Assembly: GCA_026414725.1 (NCBI GenBank)
Contig: JAOAIL010000003.1
Coordinates: 1 to 64,000 of the forward strand
Reading direction: 5' to 3'
DNA from: a bacterium
GTDB lineage: Bacteria; Ratteibacteria; UBA8468; B48-G9; JAFGKM01
DNA: 64,000 nucleotides
The notes under the pieces were generated by a model. The model was not told where the DNA came from and did not search any database. It was given only the letters and a program-made list of their open reading frames with translations. Positions 9,345 through 48,061 of this stretch are shown piece after piece; position 1 is the first letter of the stretch; each line of letters starts with the position of its first letter. Position numbers and translations under genes: made by a program.

Positions 9345-9357
9345 ATTTTATTGAGTT

Positions 9358-10488: not shown

Positions 10489-11108
10489 ATTATAAAGTCA
10501 ATAGTAAAGATAAATAATCTATTTTCTATAATTTTACAGTCAATAATACCTGCCTCTTTTAACATTTCTTCCAATTCTTTTCTGGAACAAAGTCGCATAT
10601 ATGTTCCTGTAGCCCATTCCTTACCCATTATTCTTAATAAAATATCAAACCATTTTTTAGGAAGGAGGAAATGGAATAGAGGGATTTTAGTATGAACCTC
10701 TACAGGGAAGAATTTGTTAGGTGTGGTGATGAAAAATGAACGACAAACACGATTGATTTCTCTTAAAAAATACATCTGTGCATCTCTATCACCCACATGT
10801 TCTAAAACAGCATTGGACCATCCAATATCAAATACTTTATTTTCAAAAGGGAAGTTAATACCATTATATCTGACTACTTTTACTTTTGGATATTTTTTTA
10901 TAAAATTTGTGGGGTCTTCTATCCCGAGAGCAGTTATTTTTTCTGGGTATGGATAATTCTTTTCAATATAATTGTCAGTATCACTGTATTCTGTAGATGC
11001 ATATCCAATATCAAGTATTTTTATATTTTCATCTATCTTGAAAATATCGGTAAATATTCTCCATTTTCTTTTTCTATTCCATGCCGAAATTCTATAGACA
11101 AATTTCAT
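10476..11108 (-). CDS. SAM-dependent methyltransferase, class I
   Basis: A 210-residue Methyltransf_11-type enzyme. The AdoMet-binding motif I is ILDIGYAST (about 34-42), with Tyr instead of the usual Gly in GxG. Motif IV is the DIGWSNAVLEHVGD segment, followed by ITTPNKFFPVE. The neighbourhood suggests methylation of a sugar or lipid intermediate of the surface glycan, but no substrate residue is diagnostic. It is the only minus-strand gene in the polysaccharide cluster and overlaps the end of the preceding glycosyltransferase gene tail-to-tail. Confidence 0.78.
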   Translation of the reverse strand: MKFVYRISAWNRKRKWRIFTDIFKIDENIKILDIGYASTEYSDTDNYIEKNYPYPEKITALGIEDPTNFIKKYPKVKVVRYNGINFPFENKVFDIGWSNAVLEHVGDRDAQMYFLREINRVCRSFFITTPNKFFPVEVHTKIPLFHFLLPKKWFDILLRIMGKEWATGTYMRLCSRKELEEMLKEAGIIDCKIIENRLFIFTIDFIIYKL

Positions 11109-11164
11109 TATTCTATTATAGCAATGTCATATATATTCATCAATAATTCTAAAAAATATAGCAG

Positions 11165-11194
11165 TTGCGATTTTAAATAGTCAGGGTGTATAAT
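11165..11194 (+). promoter_or_regulatory. Promoter giving a probably leaderless mRNA (glycosyltransferase)
   Basis: TTGCGA (11165-11170), 18 bp, TATAAT (11189-11194). The ATG at 11201 is only 6 bases beyond the -10 element, so transcription should begin at or next to the start codon. Confidence 0.55.
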
Positions 11195-11200
11195 AAAACA

Positions 11201-13571: not shown

Positions 13572-13606
13572 TCATTACTTGCGAGGAAGCAGAGAAGAGG
13601 GGAAGA

Positions 13607-32646: not shown

Positions 32647-32675
32647 TTGACGGGTATTTCATTAAACTGTATAAT
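32647..32675 (+). promoter_or_regulatory. Promoter of the uronate operon
   Basis: TTGACG (32647-32652), 17 bp, TATAAT (32670-32675): close to consensus. It lies just after the rng stop and about 67 bases before the first uronate gene. Confidence 0.72.
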
Positions 32676-32685
32676 CTATAACCAT

Positions 32686-32702
32686 CGGGACATAACTTCC
32701 CG
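32686..32702 (+). promoter_or_regulatory. Inverted repeat in the uronate-operon leader
   Basis: CGGGA (32686-32690) and TCCCG (32698-32702) are separated by 7 bases, immediately after the expected transcription start. It could be an operator for a uronate-responsive repressor or a small mRNA hairpin; the sequence does not decide. Confidence 0.4.
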
Positions 32703-32742
32703 GCAAAAAAAATCCTGATATTTTAAAAGGGTATAGTAAGAT

Positions 32743-33537
32743 ATGGCAAAGAGATATAAAGTAAACGATTTTCAGGGGTATCAAAAAATAGTAAGCCCTG
32801 AAAATTCTGACCTTAAAAACATACATCTTGCTGTGATAAGAAATCCATCTGGTACAAGATTTGATGGTAATACAGGTGATGAAGAAAATGTGTTTATAAT
32901 AACTGAAGGGAACATAAAATTTTTTCTGGAAGATAAATTACTTGCAGAACTCTCAAGGGAAGATGTATTTCAAGAACCACCTTCTGCTATCTATCTACCA
33001 CCCCATTCAAATTACTATATTGAATTTATTGAAAAAAGTGAGATATGTATAGCAGGGTGTATAGCTACAGGTAGATTTAAACCACAGGCCGTTTATAAGG
33101 GGCATATACGTATTAAAAGAGTAGGGGAGGAGATTTTCTTCCGAAACATTATAGAAATAATTCCCGAAGATTTTCCAGCAGAAAATCTCATTGTAGGTGA
33201 GACAATTACAGACCCTGGGAACTGGGCAAGTTATCCTCCACATAAGCATGATACAGATAATCCTCCAGAAGAAACAGCACTTGAAGAGTTATATTTCTTT
33301 AAGATCAGACCTGAAACCGGTTTTGGTTCAATACGGATATTTAACAACCCAGAGGATTACATATTTCTTATAAAAAATAATGAGGTTATTACAATTCCTA
33401 AGGGATACCATCCTGTGAGTGTTGCGCCAAAACATCAACTTTATTATTTATGGATTATGGCAGGAAATACGAGAAAGGTACTATCTACGGTTCATCCTGC
33501 CTATAAGTTCATCAATAAAAATTTCAATAGGGGGTAA
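32743..33537 (+). CDS. IolB/KduI-type uronate isomerase
   Basis: A 264-residue bicupin of the IolB/KduI superfamily, closest in motif to IolB (5-deoxy-glucuronate isomerase). The metal site is visible as SYPPHKHDTDNPPEETALEE (two His and a Glu, about 165-184), with a further His in IPKGYHPVSVAPKH. IolB normally acts in inositol breakdown, but no other iol gene is present. All neighbours act on hexuronates. KduI/IolB enzymes interconvert aldose and ketose forms of uronates. An isomerisation of glucuronate or galacturonate to fructuronate or tagaturonate, replacing UxaC, is therefore the likely role here (inference). First gene of the operon. Confidence 0.8.
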   Translation: MAKRYKVNDFQGYQKIVSPENSDLKNIHLAVIRNPSGTRFDGNTGDEENVFIITEGNIKFFLEDKLLAELSREDVFQEPPSAIYLPPHSNYYIEFIEKSEICIAGCIATGRFKPQAVYKGHIRIKRVGEEIFFRNIIEIIPEDFPAENLIVGETITDPGNWASYPPHKHDTDNPPEETALEELYFFKIRPETGFGSIRIFNNPEDYIFLIKNNEVITIPKGYHPVSVAPKHQLYYLWIMAGNTRKVLSTVHPAYKFINKNFNRG

Positions 33538-33539
33538 AG

Positions 33540-34361
33540 ATGGAATACTTAGTAAAAATGTTTTCCCTTGAGGGCAAAAAAGCAGTGATTACAGGAGGTG
33601 GAGGAGTACTTGGTTCAGAGATAGCGAGAGTACTCGGGATGGCAGGTGCTTATATATTCATATGTGACATTAAAAACTATAATGAAACAGCAGAAATGTT
33701 AAGGAAGGAAGGGATTAGGGCAGAAGGTTATTTTATGAATGTTCTGGAAAAAAATGTTATAAAAGATACTGCAGACAAAATACTGAAAAATGGAAAGATA
33801 AATATACTTGTGAATGCAGCGGGCGGTAATGTAAAAGAAGCAACTACCTCTGACACCATGTCCTTTTTTGACCTACCTCTTGAAGGACTTGAAAAAGTGA
33901 TTGCCCTCAATCTCTATGGAGGGGCAATATTACCATCTCAGATATTTGGTAAAGCAATGGCAGAAAATTCTGAAGGTGGCTCCATTATTAACATTTCCTC
34001 AATGAATGCCTTCAGACCACTTACACGAATCCCTGGATATTCAGCGGCTAAAGCAGCAGTAAGTAATTTTACTCAATGGCTTGCCGTGCATCTCGCTCAG
34101 GAATATAACACAAAATTAAGGGTAAATGCTATAGCCCCAGGATTTTTTCTTACACAGCAGAATAGATATTTACTAATGGATGAAAAAGGTACTTTAACAG
34201 CACGGGGACAGTCAATCATATCCCACACACCTATGAAAAGATTTGGAGAACCGGACGATTTAGCAGGTATTGTGATATATCTTGCTTCAGATGCTTCTAA
34301 ATTTGTTACAGGAACAGTAATACCTGTAGATGGGGGATTCAACGCTTTTGCTGGAGTGTAA
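33540..34361 (+). CDS. uxuB: SDR-type D-fructuronate reductase (mannonate oxidoreductase)
   Basis: A 273-residue short-chain dehydrogenase. It has the cofactor loop TGGGGVLGSEIA (18-29), the NAAGG motif (92-96), the catalytic Ser around 153-154, and the YxxxK pair Tyr167/Lys171 in GYSAAK. The C-terminal VTGTVIPVDGG is standard. The extended glycine loop and the NAAGGN segment match the Bacillus-type UxuB family that reduces D-fructuronate to D-mannonate with NAD(P)H; E. coli uses an unrelated enzyme. It starts 2 bp after the isomerase gene. Context with UxaE, whose product is fructuronate, supports this substrate. A gluconate 5-dehydrogenase-like role is the main alternative. Confidence 0.8.
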   Translation: MEYLVKMFSLEGKKAVITGGGGVLGSEIARVLGMAGAYIFICDIKNYNETAEMLRKEGIRAEGYFMNVLEKNVIKDTADKILKNGKINILVNAAGGNVKEATTSDTMSFFDLPLEGLEKVIALNLYGGAILPSQIFGKAMAENSEGGSIINISSMNAFRPLTRIPGYSAAKAAVSNFTQWLAVHLAQEYNTKLRVNAIAPGFFLTQQNRYLLMDEKGTLTARGQSIISHTPMKRFGEPDDLAGIVIYLASDASKFVTGTVIPVDGGFNAFAGV

Positions 34362-34385
34362 AAAAATAAAAAAGGAGGAGAGGAA

Positions 34386-35882
34386 ATGAAAGTAAAAGCA
34401 GATATTGGTGTAATAGGAATGGAAGTTATGGGAAAAAATCTTGCCCTGAATATGGAGAGTAAGGGCTATACCGTAGCTGTATTTAACAGAACAGAGGCAA
34501 AAACAAAGGACTTTGCAGAAGGACCTGCAAAAGGGAAAAATATCATCCCTACTTATGAACTTCAGAACTTTGTAGATGCCCTTAAAAAACCGAGAAAGAT
34601 TATGTTAATGGTGAAAGAAGGTGCACCTGTAGACGGTTTTATTGAGCAATTGATTCCACTGCTTGATAAGGGAGACCTTATAATAGATGGAGGAAACTCA
34701 TTCTTTAAAGATACTATAAGAAGGAATACAGAACTTCAAGGGAAAGGTATCCTATTTATAGGAACAGGTGTTTCTGGTGGAGAAGAAGGTGCTCTTAAAG
34801 GTCCTGCCATCATGCCTGGAGGACAGTTAGAAGCATATAAACTTGTAGAGAATATTTTTATTGATATTTCAGCGAAAGCAGAAGATGGAGAACCCTGTGT
34901 AACCTATATAGGACCGGATGGAGCAGGGCACTTTGTTAAGACGACTCATAATGGTATTGAATATGGAGATATGCAACTGATTGGTGAATGTGCCTGGTTT
35001 TTCAAAAAAGGACTCGGTATGAGTTCTGGGGAAATAGCAGATATTATGGCTGAATGGAACGGGAAAAACGACATTCTTCGTTCATATCTCATAGAGATAA
35101 CGGCTGATAGTATGAAAGAAAAACACAAAGCAGGAGATGGTTATCTTGTAGATATAGTAGCAGATATCACAAGGATGAAAGGTACAGGAACATGGACTGT
35201 TCAGAGTGCACTTGAATTACTTGTACCTGTCCCTACTATTGCTTCTGCTGTCTTCTCACGTGAAATGTCCCAGGATAAAGATATCCGTCTGAAAATGTCA
35301 AAGATATTAAATATCCCTGCAGGTGAAAAATTCACCGGTAATAAAAAAGATGTTATAGATATAGCCCATGATGCACTCTACATTGCTAAAATATCTTCTT
35401 ATGCTCAGGGATTGGCATTACTACAGGCAGCATCAAAGGTATATAATTTTAATTTAAATTTAGGAGAAATAGCGAAGATATGGAGAGGAGGATGTATTAT
35501 AAGAGCACAGTTCCTTGATGAGATTACAAAATCATATAAAGAAAACCCTGAACTGCCCAATCTCCTTTCTGCTCCAAGATTTTCCTCCTTTGTTAATAAA
35601 AATCTATGGAAATTAGGGAAATTTATAGAGATTGCTCACAATGCAGGAACTCCTGTTCTCGGTATGGCATCCTCATATGACTATATCCTTCAAATTGCAT
35701 CACCTGTAATGTTCTCAGCACAGGTAGCAGCACTACAACGTGATTATTTTGGTGCTCATGGTTATTTCAAGATAGGTGGAGAAAACAAACCAGAAATAAT
35801 CACCACATCTGATGGTAAGATAAGAGAATTCCATACCGAATGGCTTGTGAAAGGAAGGCCAGAAAAAGAAATAACAAAATAA
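34386..35882 (+). CDS. gnd: 6-Phosphogluconate dehydrogenase (decarboxylating)
   Basis: Oxidises 6-phosphogluconate to ribulose-5-phosphate and CO2, producing NAD(P)H. The 498-residue protein is the long, dimeric form. It has the N-terminal Rossmann loop GVIGMEVMGKNLALN, FNRT, the IIDGGNSFFKDT segment, the substrate signature GTGVSGGEEGALKGP (about 128-142) and the catalytic Lys in GHFVKTTHNGIEYGDM (about 185). The all-helical C-terminal domain is complete. AAGGAGGAGAGG precedes the start. Its place in an uronate operon is unusual unless the pathway yields gluconate or 6-phosphogluconate (see findings). A strong hairpin follows the gene. Confidence 0.93.
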   Translation: MKVKADIGVIGMEVMGKNLALNMESKGYTVAVFNRTEAKTKDFAEGPAKGKNIIPTYELQNFVDALKKPRKIMLMVKEGAPVDGFIEQLIPLLDKGDLIIDGGNSFFKDTIRRNTELQGKGILFIGTGVSGGEEGALKGPAIMPGGQLEAYKLVENIFIDISAKAEDGEPCVTYIGPDGAGHFVKTTHNGIEYGDMQLIGECAWFFKKGLGMSSGEIADIMAEWNGKNDILRSYLIEITADSMKEKHKAGDGYLVDIVADITRMKGTGTWTVQSALELLVPVPTIASAVFSREMSQDKDIRLKMSKILNIPAGEKFTGNKKDVIDIAHDALYIAKISSYAQGLALLQAASKVYNFNLNLGEIAKIWRGGCIIRAQFLDEITKSYKENPELPNLLSAPRFSSFVNKNLWKLGKFIEIAHNAGTPVLGMASSYDYILQIASPVMFSAQVAALQRDYFGAHGYFKIGGENKPEIITTSDGKIREFHTEWLVKGRPEKEITK

Positions 35883-35895
35883 CTTTTACTCATTA

Positions 35896-35930
35896 CTTAT
35901 ACCCTCTCCTCAAAAAGGAGAGGGTATAAG
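35896..35930 (+). terminator. 15-bp hairpin between gnd and larA-like gene
   Basis: A perfect 15-bp stem (35896-35910 with 35916-35930) around a 5-base loop, centred on CCCTCTCC/GGAGAGGG. It lies inside the operon rather than at its end and lacks an immediate T-run. It probably attenuates transcription or protects the upstream mRNA. The stem core repeats that of the hairpin at 2352-2382. Confidence 0.6.
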
Positions 35931-35951
35931 TAGTAAAAAAGCAGAGAAAAA

Positions 35952-37235
35952 ATGTACAGAGGCAAAGGGAGTAAAATAGAACCGGTAAGTATAAAAGAGT
36001 TATATAAAATTGTAGAAGATGTCCTTTACGGAGTAAAAAACTTTTCAAATAAAAATGTTCTTGTTGTTATTCCTGATACAACCCGTTCAGGACCTACAGA
36101 TATTATTTTTAAATATATACATATGGTTCTTACTCCTGTAGTGAAAAAAGTTGATTTTCTTATAGCCCTCGGGACCCATCCCCCAATGCCTGAAGAGAAG
36201 GTAAATGCATTTTTAAAGATAACAGAAAAAGATAGAAAGACAATTTATAAAGATACATCTATTTTACAGCATGAATGGGATAAACCTGAAGGGTTAGCAC
36301 ATATAGGAACCATATCTGCGGAGGACATGAAAGAAATTTCTGGTGGGCTAATGTCAGAAGATATCCCTGTTACTATAAACAAAAAAGTTCTTGACTATGA
36401 CGAAGTTATTCTTGCAGGTCCTGTATTCCCTCACGAAGTTGTTGGATTTTCTGGAGGATATAAATATCTTTTCCCTGGTATATCAGGTCCTGATTTTCTC
36501 CATAAATTTCACTGGCTCGGGGCACTTATAACCAATCCAAAAATCAATGGAACAAAAGATACACCTGTAAGAAGGGCGTTGAATAAAGCAGCATCGTTAT
36601 TAAGAGTTCCTATAACACTTTTATGTTATGTGGTTAAAGAAGGAGATATATATGGTTTTTATGGAGGTGATGTTGAAGCATGGTCAGAAGCAGCAGACCT
36701 ATCTTCTGATTTGAATATAAAGTATGTTGAAAGACCTTACAGAACAGTGCTTTCTATCGCTCCGGATATGTATGAAGATATCTGGACTGCAGGAAAGTGT
36801 ATGTATAAACTTGAACCGGTAGTGGCTGATGGAGGAACACTTATTATATATGCTCCTCATGTGAAAGATGTTTCTCACACACATGGTAAAGAGATAGAGA
36901 AGGTTGGTTATCACACGAGAGATTATTTTTTAAAACAGATGGATAAATTTAAAAATGTTTCTGGCTGTATCCTTGCCCATTCAACCCATGTAAAGGGTAT
37001 AGGTACATTTATAGATGGAGTTGAAAAACCCAGAATAGAGGTGGTGCTTGCAACAGGTATACCAGAAGATATATGTAAAAAGATTAATCTCGGATATATG
37101 GACTACAGAACGATTAATATGGAGAGATATAAACAAGATATAGATACCCTTGTAGTAGAAAAGGCAGGTGAAGTACTTTACAGATTGAAGGATGGTACTG
37201 TCCCGGATATAGATAAACTTTATGGAAAATTTTAA
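35952..37235 (+). CDS. LarA-family nickel-pincer racemase/epimerase
   Basis: A 427-residue member of the LarA (DUF2088) family, whose founding member racemises lactate with a nickel-pincer nucleotide cofactor. The residues that matter in LarA are present at matching spacing: DTTR (42-45), GTH with His76, His161, Lys171 ten residues later (the lysine that bonds the cofactor) and His187 sixteen residues after that (nickel ligand). The protein should therefore be an active cofactor-dependent enzyme. Other family members act on different 2-hydroxy acids, including gluconate at C2. In this operon a mannonate/gluconate 2-epimerase role is attractive (inference). The cofactor genes larB, larC and larE are not in the window. 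The gene overlaps uxaE by 14 bp. Confidence 0.85.
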   Translation: MYRGKGSKIEPVSIKELYKIVEDVLYGVKNFSNKNVLVVIPDTTRSGPTDIIFKYIHMVLTPVVKKVDFLIALGTHPPMPEEKVNAFLKITEKDRKTIYKDTSILQHEWDKPEGLAHIGTISAEDMKEISGGLMSEDIPVTINKKVLDYDEVILAGPVFPHEVVGFSGGYKYLFPGISGPDFLHKFHWLGALITNPKINGTKDTPVRRALNKAASLLRVPITLLCYVVKEGDIYGFYGGDVEAWSEAADLSSDLNIKYVERPYRTVLSIAPDMYEDIWTAGKCMYKLEPVVADGGTLIIYAPHVKDVSHTHGKEIEKVGYHTRDYFLKQMDKFKNVSGCILAHSTHVKGIGTFIDGVEKPRIEVVLATGIPEDICKKINLGYMDYRTINMERYKQDIDTLVVEKAGEVLYRLKDGTVPDIDKLYGKF

Positions 37236-38598
37236 AAAATCTTATCCTGACTTTAGAATATATGAAAATTCTATAAATGAAGCAGGTAATAAATATATCT
37301 TTCTTGTTTCAAAGGATAATAGTAAATTTATAGTCATTGGAAAAACAGATTTCAAATTTCTTCCTGCGAGTGAGAATGTAGATATTCTTCTTGAAAATTT
37401 TCCTTTTTTAAAACCTACTACCTGTGGATTAAAAAGGTCTTTTGGCTTTGGTGACCGACTTGGAATTTCTACACCAGGACATATAAGAGCAGTTAAGGAT
37501 TATCCCTTTTTTCCTTTATTTGCACAGCAGTCAGTAAGGGAATTAGAAAGAACAGGAAGAACTTTCAAAGATGTAAGGAACTCTGCTGTATTAGGATGTT
37601 TCCAGGAGGGATATAAAGATGGATTTGGGGCAGACGCAGACCATATAAAAGAGATTAAATATCTCAAACAGGCAGCAGATGCTGGCTTTACATTCTTCAC
37701 AATAGACCCATCAGATAAGATACACAACCCTGCTGTTATGTCTGAAGAACAAAAAAAATATATTCTCGGTGGATATATATCTGCTTTTGAACAAAATTAT
37801 CTTAACAGGAGATATCATATTAAAAAAACTTCATATCTAATAGATAGGGATGCCCTTGAAGAACTTGTTATTACCTATGGAGAGGCAATAGACCATATTG
37901 AAGAATGTTATAAGTTTTTGAAAAATCACTGTAAAACATTTGACTTTGAGGTCTCTGTAGATGAGACATCTATACCTACAACTCCTTTAGCACATATCTT
38001 TATTGTTGAAGAATTACAGAGAAGAAATATCAATTTCCAGAGTATTGCATTTAGATTTCCCGGACATTTTGAAAAAGGAATCGATTATAATGGAGATATA
38101 AATGTCCTGAAAGAAACATTTATAGCACATCAGACAATACGTGAAAAGATGGGAAATTATAAAATTTCATTACATTCAGGTAGTGATAAACTTTCTATAT
38201 ATACACTATTCAAGGATATATTTGGGGATAAAATCCATATAAAAACATCAGGTACAAGCTGGATTGAAGCCGTAAAACTCATTGCTATGAAGGACTTTGG
38301 ACTTTTTCTTGAGATACTTAAAAATTGTCTTAAAGATTTTAAGGAAAATTCCGCTTCTTATGAGATATCAGCAAAACCAGAAAAAATAGATTTAGAAGAG
38401 ATAAAAGATATTTCTGTAGAAGATTTATTTAGAGATAATAATATCAGACAGATTATACATATAAGTTATGGAAGCATACTCGGTAAAAGTAATAGTAAAG
38501 AAGTCAAAGAAAGGTTTTTAAAGATTTTATATAAATATGAAGAAGAATATCATACATTGCTTAAATCACATCTTGATAATCATTTGAGATTGATATAG
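37222..38598 (+). CDS. uxaE: Tagaturonate epimerase (UxaE)
   Basis: A 458-residue protein of the UxaE family, first characterised in Thermotoga, which epimerises D-tagaturonate and D-fructuronate at C3 and so joins the galacturonate and glucuronate branches. Recognisable segments are KPTTCGLKRSFGFGDRLG (about 65-82), TPGHIRAV, FGADADHIKEIKYLKQAADAG, FTIDPSD, FEVSVDETSIPTTPLAH and SLHSGSDKLSIY, rich in possible metal-binding His, Asp and Glu. The length agrees with the family. It is the last gene of the operon and its start lies within the end of the LarA-like gene, so expression is coupled. Confidence 0.85.
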   Translation: MENFKKSYPDFRIYENSINEAGNKYIFLVSKDNSKFIVIGKTDFKFLPASENVDILLENFPFLKPTTCGLKRSFGFGDRLGISTPGHIRAVKDYPFFPLFAQQSVRELERTGRTFKDVRNSAVLGCFQEGYKDGFGADADHIKEIKYLKQAADAGFTFFTIDPSDKIHNPAVMSEEQKKYILGGYISAFEQNYLNRRYHIKKTSYLIDRDALEELVITYGEAIDHIEECYKFLKNHCKTFDFEVSVDETSIPTTPLAHIFIVEELQRRNINFQSIAFRFPGHFEKGIDYNGDINVLKETFIAHQTIREKMGNYKISLHSGSDKLSIYTLFKDIFGDKIHIKTSGTSWIEAVKLIAMKDFGLFLEILKNCLKDFKENSASYEISAKPEKIDLEEIKDISVEDLFRDNNIRQIIHISYGSILGKSNSKEVKERFLKILYKYEEEYHTLLKSHLDNHLRLI

Positions 38599-38606
38599 TA
38601 AAGGTT

Positions 38607-39860
38607 TTACCTCAGACGGTTAGACCACCTTGGTTTTGTCCATTTGACTACAGTTAATTCTCCTGAACCACCACCTGTATCTCCAGGTACATCTTCATCA
38701 CTAAGAGCAACATCATAATATACTCGTACATTTCCCGTTAGATTTAAAGTATTAGAAACTATACTTCCACGAAAACGTGTGCTATTTGCAACAGTAACAG
38801 TTGCTGTAGGGGCATAAACTACTGCATATACATCAGCATCTCCTGTTCCACTTAAATTCACAGTATTAGTTGATGCCGAGTATATAGCTAAATTGGATGG
38901 TTTTCCATTAAGGTTCATTTTAGCACTATTAGCAATTGTAAAATTGGCATTCTGTCCAAGATATATGGTAACTTTAGCTCCACTTGCTAAATTAAATCTA
39001 CAGTTATTAGTTAAATTTAAGTTACCTGTTATGTATAAACGTACATTCCCATTTAGAGTTAGTTGTGCATCGCTATCTAAAGTAAAATTATTAAATTTAA
39101 AATCTCCATTAGAAATAGAAGCAGTTCTTGGCCATTGACTCATAGTAAAGTTATTACTCGTAATTTGATAATTTCCTGAAAGCCCAGGTGCACCATATTG
39201 AGTATAAGGACGATTAAGTAGTTCAGATGGTATAGATACAGGATTTAATGTACGGGGTTCAGCGTTATAAGTTATATCTCCTCTAATTGCATCAGTTATA
39301 GCTCTCCATGTTGGAATAGATATCTGTCCCCCTGAAGCTACACTGGCATCTCCAAATATAGTACCAGTAGATGTTATTTGAATAAGAAGGTCGCTACCTA
39401 CTAATGCATCCTGAGTAGTCCCATTTCTGGAGTCATAGCCAAGTATTTGAGAACTGCCATCAATATATACTCTTGTTTTTCCAAATATCCCGTTCCCAAA
39501 TGTTCTTCTCTGTCCTCCACCTTCTAAATATAGTTCTACCTGTTCAGTTATTCCACGAACATTTCCTGTTGAACGTATTACTCTTTGATTATTTATATTA
39601 CTAAGATTCACAATAAAAGTTCCATCTCCTAATTGTAATTCTGTGCTCTCTGGTACCCAATTTATATTTTCTTTTAGATGCGCATATGCTCTGTAAGCAC
39701 CTGCTTCAGCAAGATAAAATGCTTTTTCCCTGTTCAAACGTTTCTTCATACTAATCCGTTCTAACGTACCGAGGTAAAGAATCCCCATACCAACAATGAG
39801 TATAATAAATATAAATACTACTCCCATTGGAAGTAGAAAACCTTCTTTATAACGTCTCAT
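38607..39860 (-). CDS. PilX-like minor pilin with beta-helix region
   Basis: A 417-residue type IV pilus-associated protein. The N-terminus MRRYKEGFLLPMGVVFIFII has a prepilin-like Gly-Phe junction followed by a long hydrophobic helix, but lacks the usual Glu5. This matches PilX/GspK-type minor pilins. After the FYLAEAGAYRAYAHLKE motif the rest (about 120-400) is a long Asn/Thr/Ser-rich series of short strands (for example NNFTLDSDAQLTLNGNVRLY), typical of a right-handed beta-helix. Such a domain could sit at the pilus tip or bind surfaces. It is the last gene of the pilus operon. Confidence 0.75.
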   Translation of the reverse strand: MRRYKEGFLLPMGVVFIFIILIVGMGILYLGTLERISMKKRLNREKAFYLAEAGAYRAYAHLKENINWVPESTELQLGDGTFIVNLSNINNQRVIRSTGNVRGITEQVELYLEGGGQRRTFGNGIFGKTRVYIDGSSQILGYDSRNGTTQDALVGSDLLIQITSTGTIFGDASVASGGQISIPTWRAITDAIRGDITYNAEPRTLNPVSIPSELLNRPYTQYGAPGLSGNYQITSNNFTMSQWPRTASISNGDFKFNNFTLDSDAQLTLNGNVRLYITGNLNLTNNCRFNLASGAKVTIYLGQNANFTIANSAKMNLNGKPSNLAIYSASTNTVNLSGTGDADVYAVVYAPTATVTVANSTRFRGSIVSNTLNLTGNVRVYYDVALSDEDVPGDTGGGSGELTVVKWTKPRWSNRLR

Positions 39861-39875
39861 ATTTCTATCACCTTC

Positions 39876-40373
39876 CTATCTATTCCTTACTTTTACAGAA
39901 AATCTATTAGTAAAGTTTTTCCCGAATTTGGACACTGTTAACTCTACATTTATGGTATTTGTTAACCCTGTATCTTGCAAATTGACATCAGAAAATTTTA
40001 TATCCTGAAGTGTGTTTATGACAGGGTAACTACTTCCGTTTTTAATATCCTGCATAATAAGTTTATTTTCGCTACGATAAAACTTCTTTTCCCAGATATT
40101 CACTCCATTTTGAGTATATCGTGTATAGATTTGTCTTCCCGTTGGAGGAGAACTACCTGTAATTATATCCTGTATTTCATAATAGTTTGCTTCTTCAAGA
40201 ATTGCTTTTATATTTAGCCCTGCTACATCCATATCTTCTTGAAGTTCTTTTATTCCTTTATTTATATACCAGTCCTTCCATGATACATATAAAAAACTTA
40301 CAATTGCAACCAATCCTATTGCTACAATAACAACAGCAATAAGTAATTCAATAAGTGTAATACCCTTTTTCAT
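39876..40373 (-). CDS. Type IV minor pilin (PilW/PilV-like)
   Basis: A 165-residue prepilin. The N-terminus MKKG|ITLIELLIAVVIVAIG has the type III signal cleaved after Gly4, with Glu at mature position 5 and a hydrophobic polymerisation helix. The globular part (about 50-165) is unassigned. It overlaps the preceding pilin gene (ATG within the last codons) and is followed after 15 bp by the PilX-like gene, so these three form the minor-pilin block that primes pilus assembly. Confidence 0.8.
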   Translation of the reverse strand: MKKGITLIELLIAVVIVAIGLVAIVSFLYVSWKDWYINKGIKELQEDMDVAGLNIKAILEEANYYEIQDIITGSSPPTGRQIYTRYTQNGVNIWEKKFYRSENKLIMQDIKNGSSYPVINTLQDIKFSDVNLQDTGLTNTINVELTVSKFGKNFTNRFSVKVRNR

Positions 40374-40735
40374 TGTTTTGGTAGATAGGTATAGAAAGAT
40401 ATTTCGTTATTTCCAGTCCATCTTACTCTAACTTGTACTTTCCATACTAAAGCATCATTTTCATCTTCAGATATAGACACTATTCTTTCTGCAGATATAT
40501 TATATTCTCCCAGTGTTATATTTTCTGTTATCGTCCCTGCCTGTACTGAACTCTTCCCTTTAATTTCCTCAATCTTTTTTATTGCTGACCATGTAGCATA
40601 TCTTTCAAGGCGAGCACTATAAAGGTTTTTTCTATTGGTATAAAAAAATACAGAACCCGCGATAAATCCAAGTGCAATTATTACAGTTGCTAAAAGAACC
40701 TCAAGCAGGGTAAATCCGTTCTTACCTCTCTTCAT
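40370..40735 (-). CDS. Type IV minor pilin (PilV/GspI-like)
   Basis: A 121-residue prepilin with the signal MKRGKNG|FTLLEVLLATVIIALG: cleavage after Gly7, Phe at +1, Glu at +5. A short globular domain follows, with a WSAIKKIEEIKGKSS helix of the kind found in PilV/GspI-type minor pseudopilins. It overlaps the end of pilQ by 14 bp, placing it in the same transcript. Confidence 0.8.
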   Translation of the reverse strand: MKRGKNGFTLLEVLLATVIIALGFIAGSVFFYTNRKNLYSARLERYATWSAIKKIEEIKGKSSVQAGTITENITLGEYNISAERIVSISEDENDALVWKVQVRVRWTGNNEISFYTYLPKQ

Positions 40736-42032
40736 TCTTTTTTTCTTGTTCCTCCATTCTTTTCTTTTCCTGCTCTGCTATAACTTTTGCTTCTTCACCT
40801 GTAATAATCCTTGGAATAAGAAACATTACAAGGTCTGTTTTTCCTTTCTGTTTATCTTTTCTGCTAAAGAGAAATGGAAATATATCGCCGAGGACAGGAA
40901 CCTTTGATTTCTTTTCAATAGTATCCTGTCTTAAAAGTCCACCTATAACAAGTGTTTCTCCACTTTTTATCATTACCTTTGTTTTTGCTGTTCTTTCATT
41001 TGTGTCCACAGCATCTTTAAATACAGATGATTGAGTTGCTGAACTTACTGTTGGTTCAACATCAAGTATAATAACACCCTCTGCATTTACATGGGGGACA
41101 ACCTTCAAGCTTACACCCACATCTCTATATTCATACTCCGTAGTAATCCTTCCCCCTTCCATACTTTCAGTAATTTTGGGTGCTACAGCCATATTTTTCG
41201 TAATTTTTATTGTTGCAGGAGAGTCATTCAATGTTGTAATCCGTGGATTAGCGAGTATATTTGCCTGTCCTTTATCTTCAAGAATCTTCAAATTTGCAGT
41301 AAGTTCTGCAAATGAAAGAGTACCTAGTGTAAATTGCGGTGATTGTGTTGCTGTAGTCATAGTACCTCGCCTCGGACTAACAATCTCTCTTGAATAACTT
41401 TCCTCCCATGGAAAAGAAGTATCTATTGCTGGACCAAACCAGCTTCCTTCCACATTCCACTTAATCCCGAGATATTTTAAACTATCTGTAGCCATTTCTA
41501 CAAGAATTGCTTCTATCGCTACCTGTGGTACGGTCTTATCAAGAGATATTATTATTTTTCTAATATCTTCAAAAAGTTCAGGAGTTTCTCTTATAGTTAT
41601 ACTATTGGTTCTTGAGTCAATAACCATCTGTCCATTACTACTTATTAGAGTAGATAGAACCTTTCCGAGGTCCTCCGCTTTTGCATATTGAAGAAAGAAC
41701 GTCTCACTTTTAAGAGGGGATACTGTCTCTCCTGACACCTTAACCATATAGATATCTGTTCCTGAAATTTTTTCCCTATAAAGTCCATTTGCTTTAAGTA
41801 TTGAATCAACTGCTTCTTCGCTTGATACATCTTCAAGATAGGCACTTATTGGCTTCTCAGCAAGTTCAGCACTTGTTATCAGTTTTATCCCTGTGAGCTT
41901 ACTTAAACTCTGCAGGACAAGTCCTAACTTTGCTTGATTATATGTAACGGTGATATTTTTTGCCATTATACTTATAGATATAAGGAAAATTAGTATACTC
42001 AGGATTTTAAATACTTTAAGATGCTTGGTCAT
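40722..42032 (-). CDS. pilQ: PilQ-type secretin (short form)
   Basis: Outer-membrane pore through which the pilus fibre emerges. The 436-residue protein has a signal peptide (about 1-23), an STN/N0 domain (about 25-95), a single N1-type domain (about 108-165) and a secretin domain (about 170-415). The secretin domain shows VAIEAILVEM, GQANILANPRITTLNDSPA, a LKVVPHVN segment, SGETLVIGGLLRQD and the VPVLGDIFPFLFSRK signature. Most PilQ proteins are longer because they carry AMIN domains, which are missing here. The extreme C-terminus (about 415-436) is a highly charged Glu/Lys tail. Confidence 0.9.
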   Translation of the reverse strand: MTKHLKVFKILSILIFLISISIMAKNITVTYNQAKLGLVLQSLSKLTGIKLITSAELAEKPISAYLEDVSSEEAVDSILKANGLYREKISGTDIYMVKVSGETVSPLKSETFFLQYAKAEDLGKVLSTLISSNGQMVIDSRTNSITIRETPELFEDIRKIIISLDKTVPQVAIEAILVEMATDSLKYLGIKWNVEGSWFGPAIDTSFPWEESYSREIVSPRRGTMTTATQSPQFTLGTLSFAELTANLKILEDKGQANILANPRITTLNDSPATIKITKNMAVAPKITESMEGGRITTEYEYRDVGVSLKVVPHVNAEGVIILDVEPTVSSATQSSVFKDAVDTNERTAKTKVMIKSGETLVIGGLLRQDTIEKKSKVPVLGDIFPFLFSRKDKQKGKTDLVMFLIPRIITGEEAKVIAEQEKKRMEEQEKKNEER

Positions 42033-42046
42033 TTTATCATCTCCTT

Positions 42047-42454
42047 TTATTGTATATAAAGTGGGACTACATCCTTCCCTTCTTTAAGTAAAACCCTATC
42101 ACTTAGTATCTTATAAACCTGGATACTCCCTATAAATTCTCCTTCCTTTTTTACATCATCATTTATAATAGCCATTGATATCCTTCCATCGGTAATAATT
42201 CCAGACAGTGTCAATTCTAAAAGTTTTTGTTCTTCAAATTTTTTATTAGAAATAGTAAGGGGGATAAAGGGGTCTTTTTTTAAATGGATTGACGTACTAG
42301 TTCTATCTTTATCTATTAATTGAATACTCTCTTTTAGTTTTTCTATCCCTTGTTCAATAGTATTTACATCAATCACTACTGATATTGATTTTCTCCCTTC
42401 TGCAAATAAAAATGTACTTATTATCAAAAGAAAAATATAAATATATTTATTCAT
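42047..42454 (-). CDS. PilP-like pilus assembly protein
   Basis: A 135-residue exported protein between pilO and pilQ, the position of PilP, which links the inner-membrane PilNO complex to the secretin. It has a signal peptide (about 1-19) and a C-terminal segment with KKDPFIPL and beta strands (LELTLSGIITDGRISMAIIND, here split as LELTLSGI and ITDG) similar to the HR domain of PilP/GspC. It lacks an obvious lipobox. I chose the ATG at 42454, which overlaps the pilO stop by 8 bp and has an AAGGGTG site; an ATG at 42472 adds six basic residues. Confidence 0.7.
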   Translation of the reverse strand: MNKYIYIFLLIISTFLFAEGRKSISVVIDVNTIEQGIEKLKESIQLIDKDRTSTSIHLKKDPFIPLTISNKKFEEQKLLELTLSGIITDGRISMAIINDDVKKEGEFIGSIQVYKILSDRVLLKEGKDVVPLYIQ

Positions 42455-43040
42455 TTTCACCCTTCTTTTCATCTAATGCTTCTTTCTTAATTCCAAAAAT
42501 TCGCATTTCATAAATGACTAATATATTGTTAGATATAAGTTCTCTTTCTTTTGTTACAGATATTTCTTTCACTATTAAAAATTTATTATTTTGTTCTATG
42601 TCATTTATAAAAGAAACGACTTCAGGAAATCTACCTGTAATTTTCACTTTCCATTTATAGTATAATTGGTCTTCTTTTGTCATCCTTCCTGCAGTACTTT
42701 CTTCTTTCGTAATCTCTATTATTTCTATGCCTCTATATTTTGTAAGATTATATAGATAGTTATATAATGCAAGACCAGGGTCAATTTCTGTTAGATCAAG
42801 CCATAAGAAATCCGTTAATTTCTCATGTCCGACTCTTACTGTGCTTTCTATAGAATTGAGGAATGTTGGAGTTGTGGTTACTTTCATATAAGTATATTCT
42901 ATCCTTGATTTTTTAGTTTTATATTCCTGTAATATTTTCCCCTGAGGTATGAGAATAAATCCATATATAATAAATCCTATAAAGATATATGACAATATCA
43001 TCCATATGGAATATTTCTTAATTAGATGTTTCAATGGCAT
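42447..43040 (-). CDS. pilO: PilO-like pilus assembly protein
   Basis: A 197-residue inner-membrane protein with a short cytoplasmic start, one helix (about 12-31) and a periplasmic alpha/beta domain that begins with a coiled coil. PilO dimerises with PilN to form the alignment subcomplex of the type IV pilus. Sequence conservation in this family is low, so the call rests on topology, length and position between pilN and the pilP-like gene. It overlaps pilN by 23 bp. Confidence 0.72.
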   Translation of the reverse strand: MPLKHLIKKYSIWMILSYIFIGFIIYGFILIPQGKILQEYKTKKSRIEYTYMKVTTTPTFLNSIESTVRVGHEKLTDFLWLDLTEIDPGLALYNYLYNLTKYRGIEIIEITKEESTAGRMTKEDQLYYKWKVKITGRFPEVVSFINDIEQNNKFLIVKEISVTKERELISNNILVIYEMRIFGIKKEALDEKKGENE

Positions 43041-43656
43041 TTTTACCTTTCTTTCCTTTTATTTCACACTCTATTAAAAAAGAGATCACTTCTGTATTTT
43101 CAACAATAATTTTTTTAACTTCTTTTAGATAAACATCTTTAAAACCATTGAAGGCAGTCAGATTTTTTACAAATTTATCTATAGATTCCCTTTCATTCAT
43201 TATCTCTCTAAAGACATACCCTGAAATTAAAATTACTGTAGATTTCTCTCCTCTATCTCCTGTAGATTGAGGTCTATTATCTACTTCTTTACTATAAAAC
43301 CTTTCCAGCCATATCCCTGAAGGGACATTTTCTCCTACAAAATTTAGAATAGGTGCCCACTCTATTCTCTTTTCTTTTTCATTAATAAAAAAATTAATGC
43401 TTTTCAACATCTCCTGAGATTCAACATCTTTTTGTTTAATAAAATCAAACTTTTCTTTATCAGATATAATTTTCTGCTGTATATTTTCTATTTCATTGCT
43501 TGTTTTACTGATAATACTCCTATTGGACAAAAAAACTATCAATAAAAATCCTAAAAGGAAGAAAAGTCCTGCAAAATAAATCAGAAAAAGGTTAAATACC
43601 ATATGTCTATTTTTAAATCTTTCAAGACGTGTCCTAATTATGTTGATTTCAATCAT
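43018..43656 (-). CDS. pilN: PilN-like pilus assembly protein
   Basis: A 212-residue bitopic protein beginning MIEINIIRTRLERFKNR: the short cytoplasmic N-terminus that docks on PilM carries the expected IN(L/I)xxxR-like motif. A helix follows (about 22-43), then a coiled coil and a periplasmic domain (about 90-210, with WAPILNFVGENVPSGIWLE). I place the start at the ATG at 43656, which overlaps the pilM stop as ATGA; a longer frame from 43764 would read an Arg/Tyr/Asn-rich leader that is only pilM in another frame. Confidence 0.82.
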   Translation of the reverse strand: MIEINIIRTRLERFKNRHMVFNLFLIYFAGLFFLLGFLLIVFLSNRSIISKTSNEIENIQQKIISDKEKFDFIKQKDVESQEMLKSINFFINEKEKRIEWAPILNFVGENVPSGIWLERFYSKEVDNRPQSTGDRGEKSTVILISGYVFREIMNERESIDKFVKNLTAFNGFKDVYLKEVKKIIVENTEVISFLIECEIKGKKGKNAIETSN

Positions 43657-44657
43657 TTTATTTTTCTCAATATAAGCCCAAGAGAAATAGAAAAAATTGT
43701 TCCTGTTTCTTTTATATCTATAGGAATTGGTATCTCTGTCTCTATCTCTTCCAGTGGATTCCAAACATTAGTAGGAATATTCATATCCTTCTCTAAAGAT
43801 TCTTTCAATCCAGGTAGAAAGGCGCCACCGCCAGTTAAGAATAATGATTGAGCTGTCTTTTCAGTAATTTTTTTGAAATAATCTATACTTACTCTTGTTT
43901 CTGTAATAAGATCTGAAATAACTACGGGTATCATTTTTTTTATTTCATTTTTGTTCTCTCCCTTCTTTATATATATCTCTGCTTCTTCTGAAGATATATT
44001 TTTTTCCAAAGCAATAGTATCTATCACATTTTTACTACCAAAAGGGAGGTCTCTTACAAGAATAAATTTGTCTTTTTCTGCAATAACAAGATTAGTCGTT
44101 TTATATCCAACATTAAGAATAAATATTATTCCTTCATATTCAGCATGTAAATAAGTAAAACTATTTAAAATGGCCAATCCATCATAATCCATAACGAGTG
44201 GTTTAATACCAGCCATCTGCATTGTTGAAATAATAAAATCACACTTATCTTTATGGTAGCCGATAAAAAGAATTGTTTTTTTATTCCCGTTGGGAAGAAA
44301 AACGTAATCATATTCAAGATTTCTTATTCCCCCAGGAACTACCTGCATCATTTCAAGTTGTACAGCAGATTCTATTTCTCCCGGTGGTAAGTCGGGTATA
44401 TTAAAATAATGTATTACAGTTCCTGTACCACTTATACTCAAAATCCCTGTTTTAGTTGATATGGTATGCTGAGATAAGAAATTTTTTAGTGCTTTAACAA
44501 ATACATCCTGTTCTCTTTCATTTAAATTGTCTTTAAAATTAGTGAATGGAGAAGGAAAATAACCTATACGTCGTAATATTATACGTCCATTTCTTATACA
44601 TCCTTCAGATACCTTTACATAATAAGACCCCACATCTATACCTAATAACCATTTCAT
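43653..44657 (-). CDS. pilM: PilM, actin-like pilus assembly ATPase
   Basis: A 334-residue cytoplasmic protein with the actin/FtsA fold, which binds PilN and connects the pilus machine to the cytoplasm. The phosphate-1 loop is LLGIDVGSYYVKVSEG (4-19). Further features are LQLEMMQVVPGG-like residues around 105, ILNVGYKTTNLVIAEKD (phosphate 2) and FLTGGGAFLPGLKESLE (adenosine motif, about 278-294). It follows pilA, from which it is separated by a strong hairpin. Confidence 0.88.
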   Translation of the reverse strand: MKWLLGIDVGSYYVKVSEGCIRNGRIILRRIGYFPSPFTNFKDNLNEREQDVFVKALKNFLSQHTISTKTGILSISGTGTVIHYFNIPDLPPGEIESAVQLEMMQVVPGGIRNLEYDYVFLPNGNKKTILFIGYHKDKCDFIISTMQMAGIKPLVMDYDGLAILNSFTYLHAEYEGIIFILNVGYKTTNLVIAEKDKFILVRDLPFGSKNVIDTIALEKNISSEEAEIYIKKGENKNEIKKMIPVVISDLITETRVSIDYFKKITEKTAQSLFLTGGGAFLPGLKESLEKDMNIPTNVWNPLEEIETEIPIPIDIKETGTIFSISLGLILRKIK

Positions 44658-44664
44658 AATTTTT

Positions 44665-44699
44665 ATAGACAGAGAGGGAAATTTTCCCCCTCTGTCTAT
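44665..44699 (-). terminator. Hairpin between pilA and pilM
   Basis: A stem of about 15 bp with one mismatch (44665-44680 with 44684-44699; core AGACAGAG/CTCTGTCT). It lies 12 bp downstream of the pilA stop and directly before pilM. There is no T-run. It probably acts as an attenuator or 3' stabiliser, raising pilA mRNA relative to the downstream pilM-Q genes. Confidence 0.65.
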
Positions 44700-44711
44700 T
44701 CCTTGAATTAA

Positions 44712-45095
44712 TTATATACCGCTATATGAGATTGTTGAACCTGCTGCATTTGTGTATGTCAGTGTTACAGTAATCCCTGCCGCATCACCGGTCCCTGTTG
44801 TCTGAGCAGTAAATCCGTTTGCATCAGCAGCTGTTATAGCATAGGATGTAAAATATCTATTCCCTGTAGCAGAGATATTTAAATTATTAGAATCAGTGGT
44901 GTATGTATTGTGTTCTGCATAATATATCTTCTGTGCTGTAAGAACTGAACCGAGTAGTGCTGCGCCTTCTGCTGCCATTGCTTTTCTCACCTGTGCCCTG
45001 TATATAGGAATAGATATGGCAGCCAGTACACCAACGATAATAACAACCGCCATTAACTCTATCAGGGTAAACCCCTTCTTCCCTTTTGTTTTCAT
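44712..45095 (-). CDS. pilA: Type IV major pilin
   Basis: A 127-residue prepilin: MKTKGKKG|FTLIELMAVVIIVG is cleaved after Gly8, leaving methylatable Phe1 and Glu5. The long N-terminal helix continues to about residue 60 (AALLGSVLTAQKIYYAEHNT), and a small Thr/Ser/Gly/Ala-rich beta domain follows without a Cys pair, so the C-terminal disulfide loop of classical pilins is absent. This resembles short pilins or pseudopilins. Its own promoter, a following hairpin and its position in the middle of the assembly operon support it as the abundant major subunit. Confidence 0.85.
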   Translation of the reverse strand: MKTKGKKGFTLIELMAVVIIVGVLAAISIPIYRAQVRKAMAAEGAALLGSVLTAQKIYYAEHNTYTTDSNNLNISATGNRYFTSYAITAADANGFTAQTTGTGDAAGITVTLTYTNAAGSTISYSGI

Positions 45096-45111
45096 TTCTC
45101 TGCTGTTATTA

Positions 45112-45140
45112 ATTATAACATATTCTCAAAAGTTTATCAA
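45112..45140 (-). promoter_or_regulatory. pilA promoter
   Basis: Minus strand: TTGATA (45140-45135), 17 bp, TATAAT (45117-45112), in the 62-bp gap between pilC and pilA. Only 16 bases separate it from the ATG at 45095. Together with the hairpin after pilA it would produce a strong, separate pilA transcript. Confidence 0.68.
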
Positions 45141-45156
45141 GTTAACAAATTTTATT

Positions 45157-46380
45157 TTATCTCATTGAACCTGCTAAGTTAAATATAGGAAGATAAATAG
45201 CAATTACTATTGTACCTACAATAACAGCAAGTCCAATTATCAAAATTGGCTCGAGAATTGAAGTTAATACATTCAAAGTAGCATCTACTTCATCCTTGAA
45301 AAATTTCGCTGTTCTTCTTAACATCTCTTCTATATTACCGGTTTCTTCTCCTACCATAACCATCCTGGTAAGCAAGATAGGAAATATTTTATACTTTTTC
45401 ATTTCCTCACCCATAAGAGCACCTTGTAATACTCCTTTACGTACTTTAAGTACTGCATTTTCTACTATTTTATTCTCCACAGTTTTAGATACGATATCAA
45501 GAGCTGATACGATAGGAACTCCTCCTGCAAGTAATGTTGCAAGTGAATTTGAAAATCGTGAAAGAGATACTTTAAGAATTAAAGGACCAAATATAGGTGT
45601 TCTTAATTTCATTCTATCAATCTTTTCTCTACCAGCAGGGGTCCTATTAAATATAAAAAAGGAAATAAAACAAATAAAAAAGAAAGGGAGTATAAAAGGT
45701 AAGGCGGAAATAAAAAATTCACTTATACCTAATATTACAAGAGTAAATTTTGGAAGCTGGGCATTAAAACTTTTAAAAATTTCATTGAATTTTGGCAGTA
45801 GAAATAAAAACACAAAGAATACTACAGCAATAAAAAATATAAGAACAACTATAGGATAACTTAATGCTTGTTTAACTTTGCTCTTTAAAATAAGCTGTTC
45901 TTCAAAATCAGAAGCAATTTCTTTCATTACTTCAGCGGTATTACCGCTTTCTTCTCCGGATTTAATTAAAGCAATATAAAGGGGAGAAAACACTTTAGGA
46001 TGTTTTGAAAGTGCAGATGAAAAACTATCTCCCTCTTGAATGTTGGACTTAATATTTTGTAGAACATTAGAAAAGTATTTATTAGACGTTTGTGTACTTA
46101 AATCGTCAAGAGTATCTGTTATAGAAACACCTGCAGCAAGCATTGTAGACGCCTGTCTGGTAAACAGAGCAAGCTCTTTAAGATTTACCCGTCCTTTCTT
46201 TAGCTTTTGCTGTTTTTGTTTAGATAATAAAAGTCCTTTTTCTTCAGCGATCTGTATATTTACAGGAAAAAGATTTTGATTTCTCAGTCGGGTTACAACT
46301 GCAATATTTGAAGGTGCTTCTAAAAGACCTTCTATGCGATTTCCTTTTGTATCTCTCGCTACATAATAATATCTCGCCAT
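45157..46380 (-). CDS. pilC: PilC, inner-membrane platform protein
   Basis: A 407-residue GspF/PilC family protein on which the pilus assembles. It has two homologous cytoplasmic T2SSF domains (about 70-195 and 275-395) with the signatures LALFTRQASTMLAAGVSI and RFSNSLATLLAGGVPIVSAL and the GEESGN and GEETGN motifs. Three or four transmembrane helices lie at about 170-193, 212-235 and 375-400. The length is standard. It follows pilB after 7 bp. Confidence 0.93.
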   Translation of the reverse strand: MARYYYVARDTKGNRIEGLLEAPSNIAVVTRLRNQNLFPVNIQIAEEKGLLLSKQKQQKLKKGRVNLKELALFTRQASTMLAAGVSITDTLDDLSTQTSNKYFSNVLQNIKSNIQEGDSFSSALSKHPKVFSPLYIALIKSGEESGNTAEVMKEIASDFEEQLILKSKVKQALSYPIVVLIFFIAVVFFVFLFLLPKFNEIFKSFNAQLPKFTLVILGISEFFISALPFILPFFFICFISFFIFNRTPAGREKIDRMKLRTPIFGPLILKVSLSRFSNSLATLLAGGVPIVSALDIVSKTVENKIVENAVLKVRKGVLQGALMGEEMKKYKIFPILLTRMVMVGEETGNIEEMLRRTAKFFKDEVDATLNVLTSILEPILIIGLAVIVGTIVIAIYLPIFNLAGSMR

Positions 46381-46387
46381 TTTACAT

Positions 46388-48061
46388 TTATGTAAGTGTC
46401 TTACTTAAAAGTTCTTCTACAGTAGTTATTCCCGCAAAAACTTTTTTTAACGCTGCTTGCTTAAGAGTTGTAAATCCATATTTAATACACAGTTCTCGTA
46501 GTGCTTCCTCATCAGTATCCTTAAGTATCTGTTTTTTTATATCTCCTTTATTGAGGTTTAGAACTTCAAAAATGGCAATCATTCCTTTATAACCGGTAGA
46601 ATTACATTCTCCACAACCTCTACCTTTATATATTTTATTCTCTACTTTAATTCCCATATTTTTTAGAATTTCAGTGCCTTCTATATCCTCCTGTAAACAA
46701 TTTTGACATATTCTTCTTACAAGACGTTGTGCCATAATAAGATGGACTGCATCAACTATAAGATAGTTAGGAATACCCATATAATTTAAACGGGCTACTG
46801 TTGAAATAGTATCATTTGTATGCAAAGTACTTATTACAAGATGGCCTGTAAGTGCTGATTGAATAGATATCTGTGCTGTCTCAAGGTCCCTTATTTCTCC
46901 CACCATTATTACATCAGGGTCCTGTCTCAATATACTTCTTAAAACCTCTGCAAATGTAAGTCCTATTTTTGGTTTTACCTGAACCTGGTTAATTCCTGCA
47001 AGTTCATATTCTACTGGATCTTCAATAGTTATAATATTCTTCTCAGGAGTATTTATAAAATTAAGTCCTGAATATAAAGTAGTTGTTTTTCCTGACCCAG
47101 TTGGTCCTGTCACGATAATCATTCCATATGGTTTTTTTAAAGAAGAACGGTAAATATTTGCCTCTTCTTCTTCCATTCCAAGTGTATCGAGTGTCTTTAC
47201 AAGTGATTGTTTATGTAAAAGCCGTAAAACAATTTTTTCTCCATATATAGTAGGTAAAGTTGAAACCCTTACATCTATTTCTCTTGGACCTATCCTGAAT
47301 TTTGTCCTTCCATCCTGTGGTAAACGCCTTTCTCCTATATCAAGGTTTGAAAGTATTTTCAATCTCGTAACAATACCAGAATAAGCCCCTCTTGGAGGTG
47401 GAGGCATATGGTATAGTGCCCCATCTATCCTGAAACGTAAAGAGATTTTATCTTCTTGTGGTTCAAGATGTATATCAGTAGCCCTTTTCTCAGTCGCTTC
47501 TAAAAAGAGAGAATTAACAAATTTAACTATGGGTGGGTCTTCAGCAGCTACTTTTAATTGTTGAACATTTACAACTTCTGTATCAGTTCCTGTCTCTTCT
47601 AATTCAGATGTTGTTCGGGATAGGTCTGTATTAACTCCATAGTATTTTTCAACAAACTCTTCTATCTGACTTTTTTCTGCTCTTACTATCCTTAACTGCT
47701 TATTGGTATTTCGTCTTACTGTGTCTATAGCCACTATATCCGTAGGATCAGCCATAGCAATAGTTAATTTATCCTTTTCAAGAGCTATTGCAATAAGATT
47801 ATATCTCCTTGCAATATTTTCAGGAATCAGATTTACAACTTCTGCTTTTATACCTCTAATTTTTGAAAGGTCAACAAAACTAGATTTCTTTTGGTCTGTT
47901 AGACACTCAATAATCTGCTCTTTTGTAACAATTCTTTGTTCAATCAGAATCTCCCCTAGGAATTTTTTTTCTAAGGTCTGCTTGAGGAGTGCATCTTCAA
48001 GTTGTTCCTGAGTAATAAGCCCTTTTTCTAACAATATCTGACCCAGCTCTTTCCTTTCCAT
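46388..48061 (-). CDS. pilB: PilB, pilus extension ATPase
   Basis: A 557-residue GspE/PilB hexameric ATPase that powers pilus extension. The N-terminal T2SSE_N regions (about 1-150) begin ELGQILLEKGLITQEQLEDA. The catalytic domain has Walker A GPTGSGKTTTLYSGL (about 318), the Asp box IITIEDPVEYEL, Walker B RSILRQDPDVIMVGEIRD, a His box (GHLVISTLHTND) and a tetracysteine zinc site (CQNC...CGEC, about 455-490). It is the first gene of the operon. No retraction ATPase (PilT) or prepilin peptidase (PilD) is in the window. Confidence 0.95.
   Translation of the reverse strand: MERKELGQILLEKGLITQEQLEDALLKQTLEKKFLGEILIEQRIVTKEQIIECLTDQKKSSFVDLSKIRGIKAEVVNLIPENIARRYNLIAIALEKDKLTIAMADPTDIVAIDTVRRNTNKQLRIVRAEKSQIEEFVEKYYGVNTDLSRTTSELEETGTDTEVVNVQQLKVAAEDPPIVKFVNSLFLEATEKRATDIHLEPQEDKISLRFRIDGALYHMPPPPRGAYSGIVTRLKILSNLDIGERRLPQDGRTKFRIGPREIDVRVSTLPTIYGEKIVLRLLHKQSLVKTLDTLGMEEEEANIYRSSLKKPYGMIIVTGPTGSGKTTTLYSGLNFINTPEKNIITIEDPVEYELAGINQVQVKPKIGLTFAEVLRSILRQDPDVIMVGEIRDLETAQISIQSALTGHLVISTLHTNDTISTVARLNYMGIPNYLIVDAVHLIMAQRLVRRICQNCLQEDIEGTEILKNMGIKVENKIYKGRGCGECNSTGYKGMIAIFEVLNLNKGDIKKQILKDTDEEALRELCIKYGFTTLKQAALKKVFAGITTVEELLSKTLT

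Follow-up and report, generated by a model that had tools for sequence, protein, structure and literature searches.

A probable hexuronate operon encoding a GntE-type LarA homologue in a bacterial genome without larB, larC and larE

Organization of the operon

A stretch of 64,000 nucleotides from a bacterium of the lineage Ratteibacteria (contig JAOAIL010000003.1, assembly GCA_026414725.1, positions 1 to 64,000; hereafter, the window) carries a putative hexuronate operon that includes a homologue of the lactate racemase LarA. The source genome (G000; 1.52 Mb) is 96.4% complete, and its closest named relatives are metagenome-assembled genomes (MAGs) deposited as Candidatus Omnitrophota.

The proteins of the window were scored against Pfam and NCBIfam models. 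Five open reading frames (ORFs) lie head to tail on the plus strand at positions 32743–38598. The first (32743–33537) encodes a cupin of the KduI/IolB family, probably a ketol-isomerase of a uronate (PF04962, 206 bits). It falls under the cut-off of the IolB equivalog model (TIGR04378, 190.4 versus 205 bits), and its H and E residues that resemble metal ligands are unvaried in five relatives. The second (33540–34361) encodes a short-chain dehydrogenase/reductase (SDR) of the D-mannonate oxidoreductase (fructuronate reductase) type, for which the top model is NF006132, 'D-mannonate oxidoreductase' (342.8 bits, cut-off 281). The third is gnd (34386–35882), for decarboxylating 6-phosphogluconate dehydrogenase (TIGR00873 577.6 and NF006765 596.9, both above cut-off). 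The larA homologue (35952–37235; Lar_N, 86 bits, above cut-off) is by its sequence of the GntE type, that is, a predicted gluconate/mannonate 2-epimerase, and overlaps by 14 nucleotides with uxaE (37222–38598; PF16257, 497 bits), encoding a tagaturonate/fructuronate epimerase, an assignment also backed by the solved UxaE structures 9lhw and 6ilb.

A sigma-70-type promoter, TTGACG-17-TATAAT, at 32647–32675 on the plus strand is the top site of the region (11/12). Promoter-like sites are frequent by chance (26 found versus 34 expected); a TTGACx-17-TATAwT pair can be read by eye at the equivalent place 5' of kduI in the related genomes G001 and G008. A first-pass annotation of this DNA had named the same five products and a near-consensus promoter of their own, and both descriptions hold, with all five genes recovered at their positions. 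A scan of the window with Rfam returned no match.

A search of related genomes, suggested by that annotation, found the whole set kduI-SDR-gnd-larA-uxaE kept in G001. Since the order kduI-SDR-gnd-..-larA-uxaE is retained across genera, the operon is not a chance gathering of genes. In G008, G020 and G029 a pyrophosphate-type phosphofructokinase gene and a HAD-family gene are inserted between gnd and larA; G016 and G017 have the HAD gene there without the phosphofructokinase, and the last gene of the G016 operon reads as transketolase-like. An Aerophobetes MAG (L039) has the arrangement GntR-uxaE-SDR-FGGY kinase-gnd-larA, with a gluconokinase-like kinase, and a Planctomycetota MAG (L042) has SDR-larA-GntK, with GntK above cut-off. 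The gene content of these clusters would suit a putative conversion of mannonate to gluconate and on to 6-phosphogluconate, feeding the pentose phosphate pathway.

The phosphofructokinase and the HAD-family protein, the latter of 345 amino acids with a DTDG motif, accompany larA in several genera (L050:5256-7751 in G008, L038:5493-7900, L114:7601-10057 and L041:9246-11513) and are not in the operon of G000 or G001. The phosphofructokinase of G008 exceeds the cut-off of NF010675, and NCBIfam offers no curated name for the HAD protein. In a further genus of the same family, g4 (L040:7974-10251 and L055:6822-9090), larA occurs without gnd, SDR or uxaE and adjoins a gene for a 340 amino acid protein whose sequence resembles that of a 2-hydroxyacid dehydrogenase; the role of larA there may differ.

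Identity of the LarA homologue

The source genome has one LarA. Of the solved sequences, only 4nar matches it strongly (238 bits), lactate and malate racemases reaching at most 35 bits. When an AlphaFold2 model of the protein (mean predicted local distance difference test score, pLDDT, of 87) was used for a fold search, 4nar was again the top hit (E 1e-40, template modelling score, TM, 0.85), with the structures of LarA and Mar2 far behind. The entry 4NAR is GntE2 of Thermotoga maritima (TM0442), which has been assayed with D-mannonate (PMC7583248). The best NCBIfam model is NF052594 (hexonate epimerase, group 18), against which the LarA homologue scores 182.8 bits and the GntE2 fragment 186.0 bits.

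At the positions corresponding to F175, F176, W358 and T359 in LarA numbering, GntE enzymes usually have E, V, A and H (PMC11770544). This signature is present as E162 and V163, from the alignment to LarA, and as A342-H343, which is invariant in the family alignment; the latter pair was placed by the match to GntE2, as the LarA fragment stops at 317. Equivalents of the residues that bind the nickel-pincer nucleotide (NPN) or act in catalysis (D72, R75, H108, H174, K184, H200 and K298) are all present and unvaried among the aligned relatives. With the LarA lactate racemase/NPN superfamily the protein thus has in common the Lar_N domain, the NPN-binding Lys and His, the two catalytic His and the Lys298 equivalent, and it differs in its GntE substrate signature and in coming from a genome without larB, larC or larE. 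Sequence, predicted fold and active-site signature together provide good support for a GntE-type gluconate/mannonate 2-epimerase, the type to which the first-pass annotation had assigned it.

Route from hexuronate to ribulose-5-phosphate

The gene set suggests a route in which UxaC, encoded away from the operon and possibly aided by the KduI-like protein, would supply tagaturonate and fructuronate, which UxaE would interconvert. The SDR would reduce fructuronate to D-mannonate, and the LarA-type enzyme would invert C2 to yield D-gluconate by the proton-coupled hydride transfer of LarA on NPN. A putative kinase would then form 6-phosphogluconate, which Gnd would convert to ribulose-5-phosphate. 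The substrate, the direction, the kinase and the source of the cofactor are what we infer here.

Genome-wide searches of G000 found UxaC and returned no PF03786 match for UxuA, a combination that favours this route. Glucose-6-phosphate dehydrogenase (G6PDH) was likewise not found in the genome, so Gnd needs another source of 6-phosphogluconate; this speaks for the earlier argument that the presence of Gnd implies formation of 6-phosphogluconate. As positive controls, LarC, UxuA and G6PDH of T. maritima were each found by the same searches.

The distribution of the candidate isomerases varies among relatives. Only KduI is seen in G016, G020 and G011 and only UxaC in G017, which hints at KduI-like proteins and UxaC substituting for each other; it is no more than a hint, as both occur in G000, G001 and G008 and neither is in view in G029. 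In G000, uxaC lies away from the uxaE operon (L043:141-3897, G000:C4), between genes for a DUF6785/DUF6784 protein and an M55 D-aminopeptidase; an M55-like protein is also encoded near uxaC in G008.

The nearest known counterparts are the T. maritima operon aldH-pelB-gnd-uxaRED-gntEK and GntE2. That operon likewise unites gnd, uxaE and uxaD with a gluconate 2-epimerase of the LarA type, and the fold and active-site residues are the same. It differs in having gntK, a regulator and pectinase genes, none of which occur here, whereas the KduI/IolB-like gene is extra here. T. maritima also has UxuA, LarC, G6PDH and a studied LarE (PMC9283937), and G000 is without all four. For T. maritima, a route from tagaturonate through mannonate and gluconate to the pentose phosphate pathway was proposed by Rodionova 2012, as that work is described in PMC6978723 and PMC7583248, and the epimerase step was demonstrated by assay by Desguin 2020 (PMC7583248). 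The joined pathway of the first-pass annotation is well supported but, as it was already published, not new; it is a rediscovery of a known route. That the operon is of the Thermotoga GntE type and follows the gluconate route we hold to be likely, with good confidence.

A second comparison is provided by the galacturonate route of Lactobacillus suebicus to the phosphoketolase pathway. It shares UxaC, UxaE and fructuronate reductase, followed by 6-phosphogluconate and Gnd in place of UxuA-KdgK-KdgA, and differs in that mannonate is phosphorylated prior to epimerisation.

Loss of larB, larC and larE

The first-pass annotation had named a lack of larB, larC and larE as a refutation of its proposal, and, unexpectedly, all three are absent from this 96%-complete genome. 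No LarC candidate was found in G000, the only matches to LarE were weak PP-loop matches, and the single AIRC match to LarB was a PurE-sized protein. The best of the weak PP-loop matches, considered as a divergent LarE, is GuaA (319.6 bits to TIGR00884). No LarB, LarC or LarE above cut-off was found in G001, G002, G003, G004, G008 or G011 either, so that, with G000, all seven genomes of two genera are without the three genes. A weak LarC match in G002 (8.5e-5, 30 codons) lies outside any long ORF of its stretch and was taken as chance. By comparison, of 11 LarA carriers from outside these two genera that were searched for the full set, 9 possess larB, larC and larE, the remaining two being G014, without larC, and G018, without larB.

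The loci of the three genes in relatives are separate and conserved, with larC beside valS, larE near nadA and larB beside htpX. In G009, G016 and G017, larC sits between YajC and ValS. On a 185-kb contig of G000, QueA-Tgt-YajC-ValS are contiguous, ValS starts 2 nucleotides after YajC, and no remnant of larC is left. The direct junction of YajC and ValS where larC stood in the ancestor shows that larC has truly been lost. This reading at the level of the locus covers the larC site; the stretches of G000 read for gene neighbourhoods amount to about 566 kb of 1.52 Mb, and NadA and HtpX, which mark the larE and larB sites, lie outside them. A real loss of all three genes is, in our judgement, very likely, and the gluconate pathway and the loss taken jointly are quite probable. 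In the LarA tree the grouping of G009 with G008 is weakly supported (83/44), and the tree does not decide between one and two losses.

The larA gene, in contrast, shows no decay. Its ratio of nonsynonymous to synonymous substitution rates (dN/dS) is 0.08 to G001 and 0.10 to G002, indicating purifying selection of the same order as on kduI (0.08) and SDR (0.07) of the same operon. Each of the four species has an intact ORF, even at identities as low as 75%, and no position at which the NPN-making relatives are invariant is altered in every one of the four proteins from the clade that lost larB, larC and larE. The internal stops flagged for larA of G008 and of G009 fall beyond the bounds of the gene, whose ORF is intact in both. 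Given an intact larA on which purifying selection acts, the absence of the cofactor genes is no refutation of the enzyme and leads instead to the question of where the cofactor comes from.

Source of the cofactor and alternative readings

The best reading is that the pathway is a known one in a lineage that cannot make NPN by the known route. It appears moderately probable that a working LarA-type epimerase was kept after the loss of LarBCE, the cofactor being imported, made by unknown enzymes, or dispensed with in a LarA chemistry that does without NPN. For the first of these, the enzyme would still use NPN, or a late precursor of it, obtained from other cells; this supply from outside the cell is plausible and is, tentatively, the source we prefer. 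Several points weigh against the overall interpretation. All genomes compared are MAGs. The score of the LarA homologue against NF052594, 182.8 bits, lies far below the cut-off of 500, as does that of GntE2. Contrary to the expectation of the first-pass annotation, neither known gluconokinase family was recognised in G000: no GntK-type protein exceeds cut-off, the FGGY kinases are of xylulokinase, ribulokinase and rhamnulokinase types, and PfkB was not searched, so the kinase step is a gap. Finally, no report of NPN uptake was found in the literature searched.

That the LarA of this clade needs no NPN made by LarBCE, because it uses another hydride carrier or because unrelated enzymes make the cofactor (non-orthologous replacement), would account for the loss of three separate loci in seven genomes while larA stays under selection. 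We consider it rather unlikely, as the equivalents of Lys184, His200, Asp72, Arg75, His108, His174 and Lys298 are kept, as continued NPN use predicts, and no residue invariant in NPN makers is changed throughout the four clade proteins. A cofactor-free LarA is possible, and the active site offers no hint of it.

The remaining alternatives are improbable. One is that larA is the leftover of a dying pathway, in which the cofactor genes were lost first and larA would follow. It draws on G003 and G004 (1.1 Mb), which have neither larA nor larBCE and where larA may already have gone, and on the lack of a recognised gluconokinase in G000. Against it stand the low dN/dS of larA, like that of kduI and SDR, the intact ORFs in four species, and the retention of the operon and its promoter. 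That no gluconokinase was recognised would also suit a scheme in which phosphorylation of mannonate precedes epimerisation and 6-phosphomannonate is the substrate of the LarA-type enzyme, an order suggested by activities in L. suebicus extracts. This seems doubtful, given that the L. suebicus activity is not assigned to a gene, that GntE2, the nearest assayed enzyme, takes free D-mannonate, and that in distant relatives gluconokinase-type genes accompany this larA. A different hexonate or uronate substrate, as for groups 18 and 19, with mannonate turned over in a side reaction, is suggested by the top NCBIfam model, a putative group 18 hexonate epimerase, and by the very high Michaelis constant (KM) for mannonate of GntE1 (group 19); we give it little credence, since an operon that also encodes UxaE, an SDR of the mannonate type and Gnd points to mannonate and gluconate as the natural pair. 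An artefact of assembly or binning is very improbable: although single genes are missed in related MAGs too (larC in G014, larB in G018), all three are gone from each of seven genomes, with G000, G001 and G008 being 96, 91 and 94% complete, and from three separate loci, one of them closed on a long contig.

As the route itself is known, the operon is of value as a further clear example of it, from an uncultured lineage that branches deeply. What is new is that larB, larC and larE have all been lost next to an intact NPN enzyme under selection. A published survey discusses genomes that are positive for larBCE and lack larA (PMC11796402); a limited literature search found no discussion of the reverse, larA without larBCE. 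The preferred reading, a retained epimerase in a lineage without LarBCE, opens to test whether microbes share NPN with one another, whether it is made in another way, or whether some LarA enzymes can dispense with it.

Neighbouring loci

Directly after the operon, on the minus strand, the window carries a cluster resembling type IV pilus or type II secretion genes (38607–48061), the first gene of which is likewise placed in G001, G008 and G017. Further upstream, positions 7536–15346 hold a surface polysaccharide locus, in which genes for two Wzy_C ligase-like proteins, each with a TPR fusion, have glycosyltransferases and a bacterial sugar transferase encoded between them.
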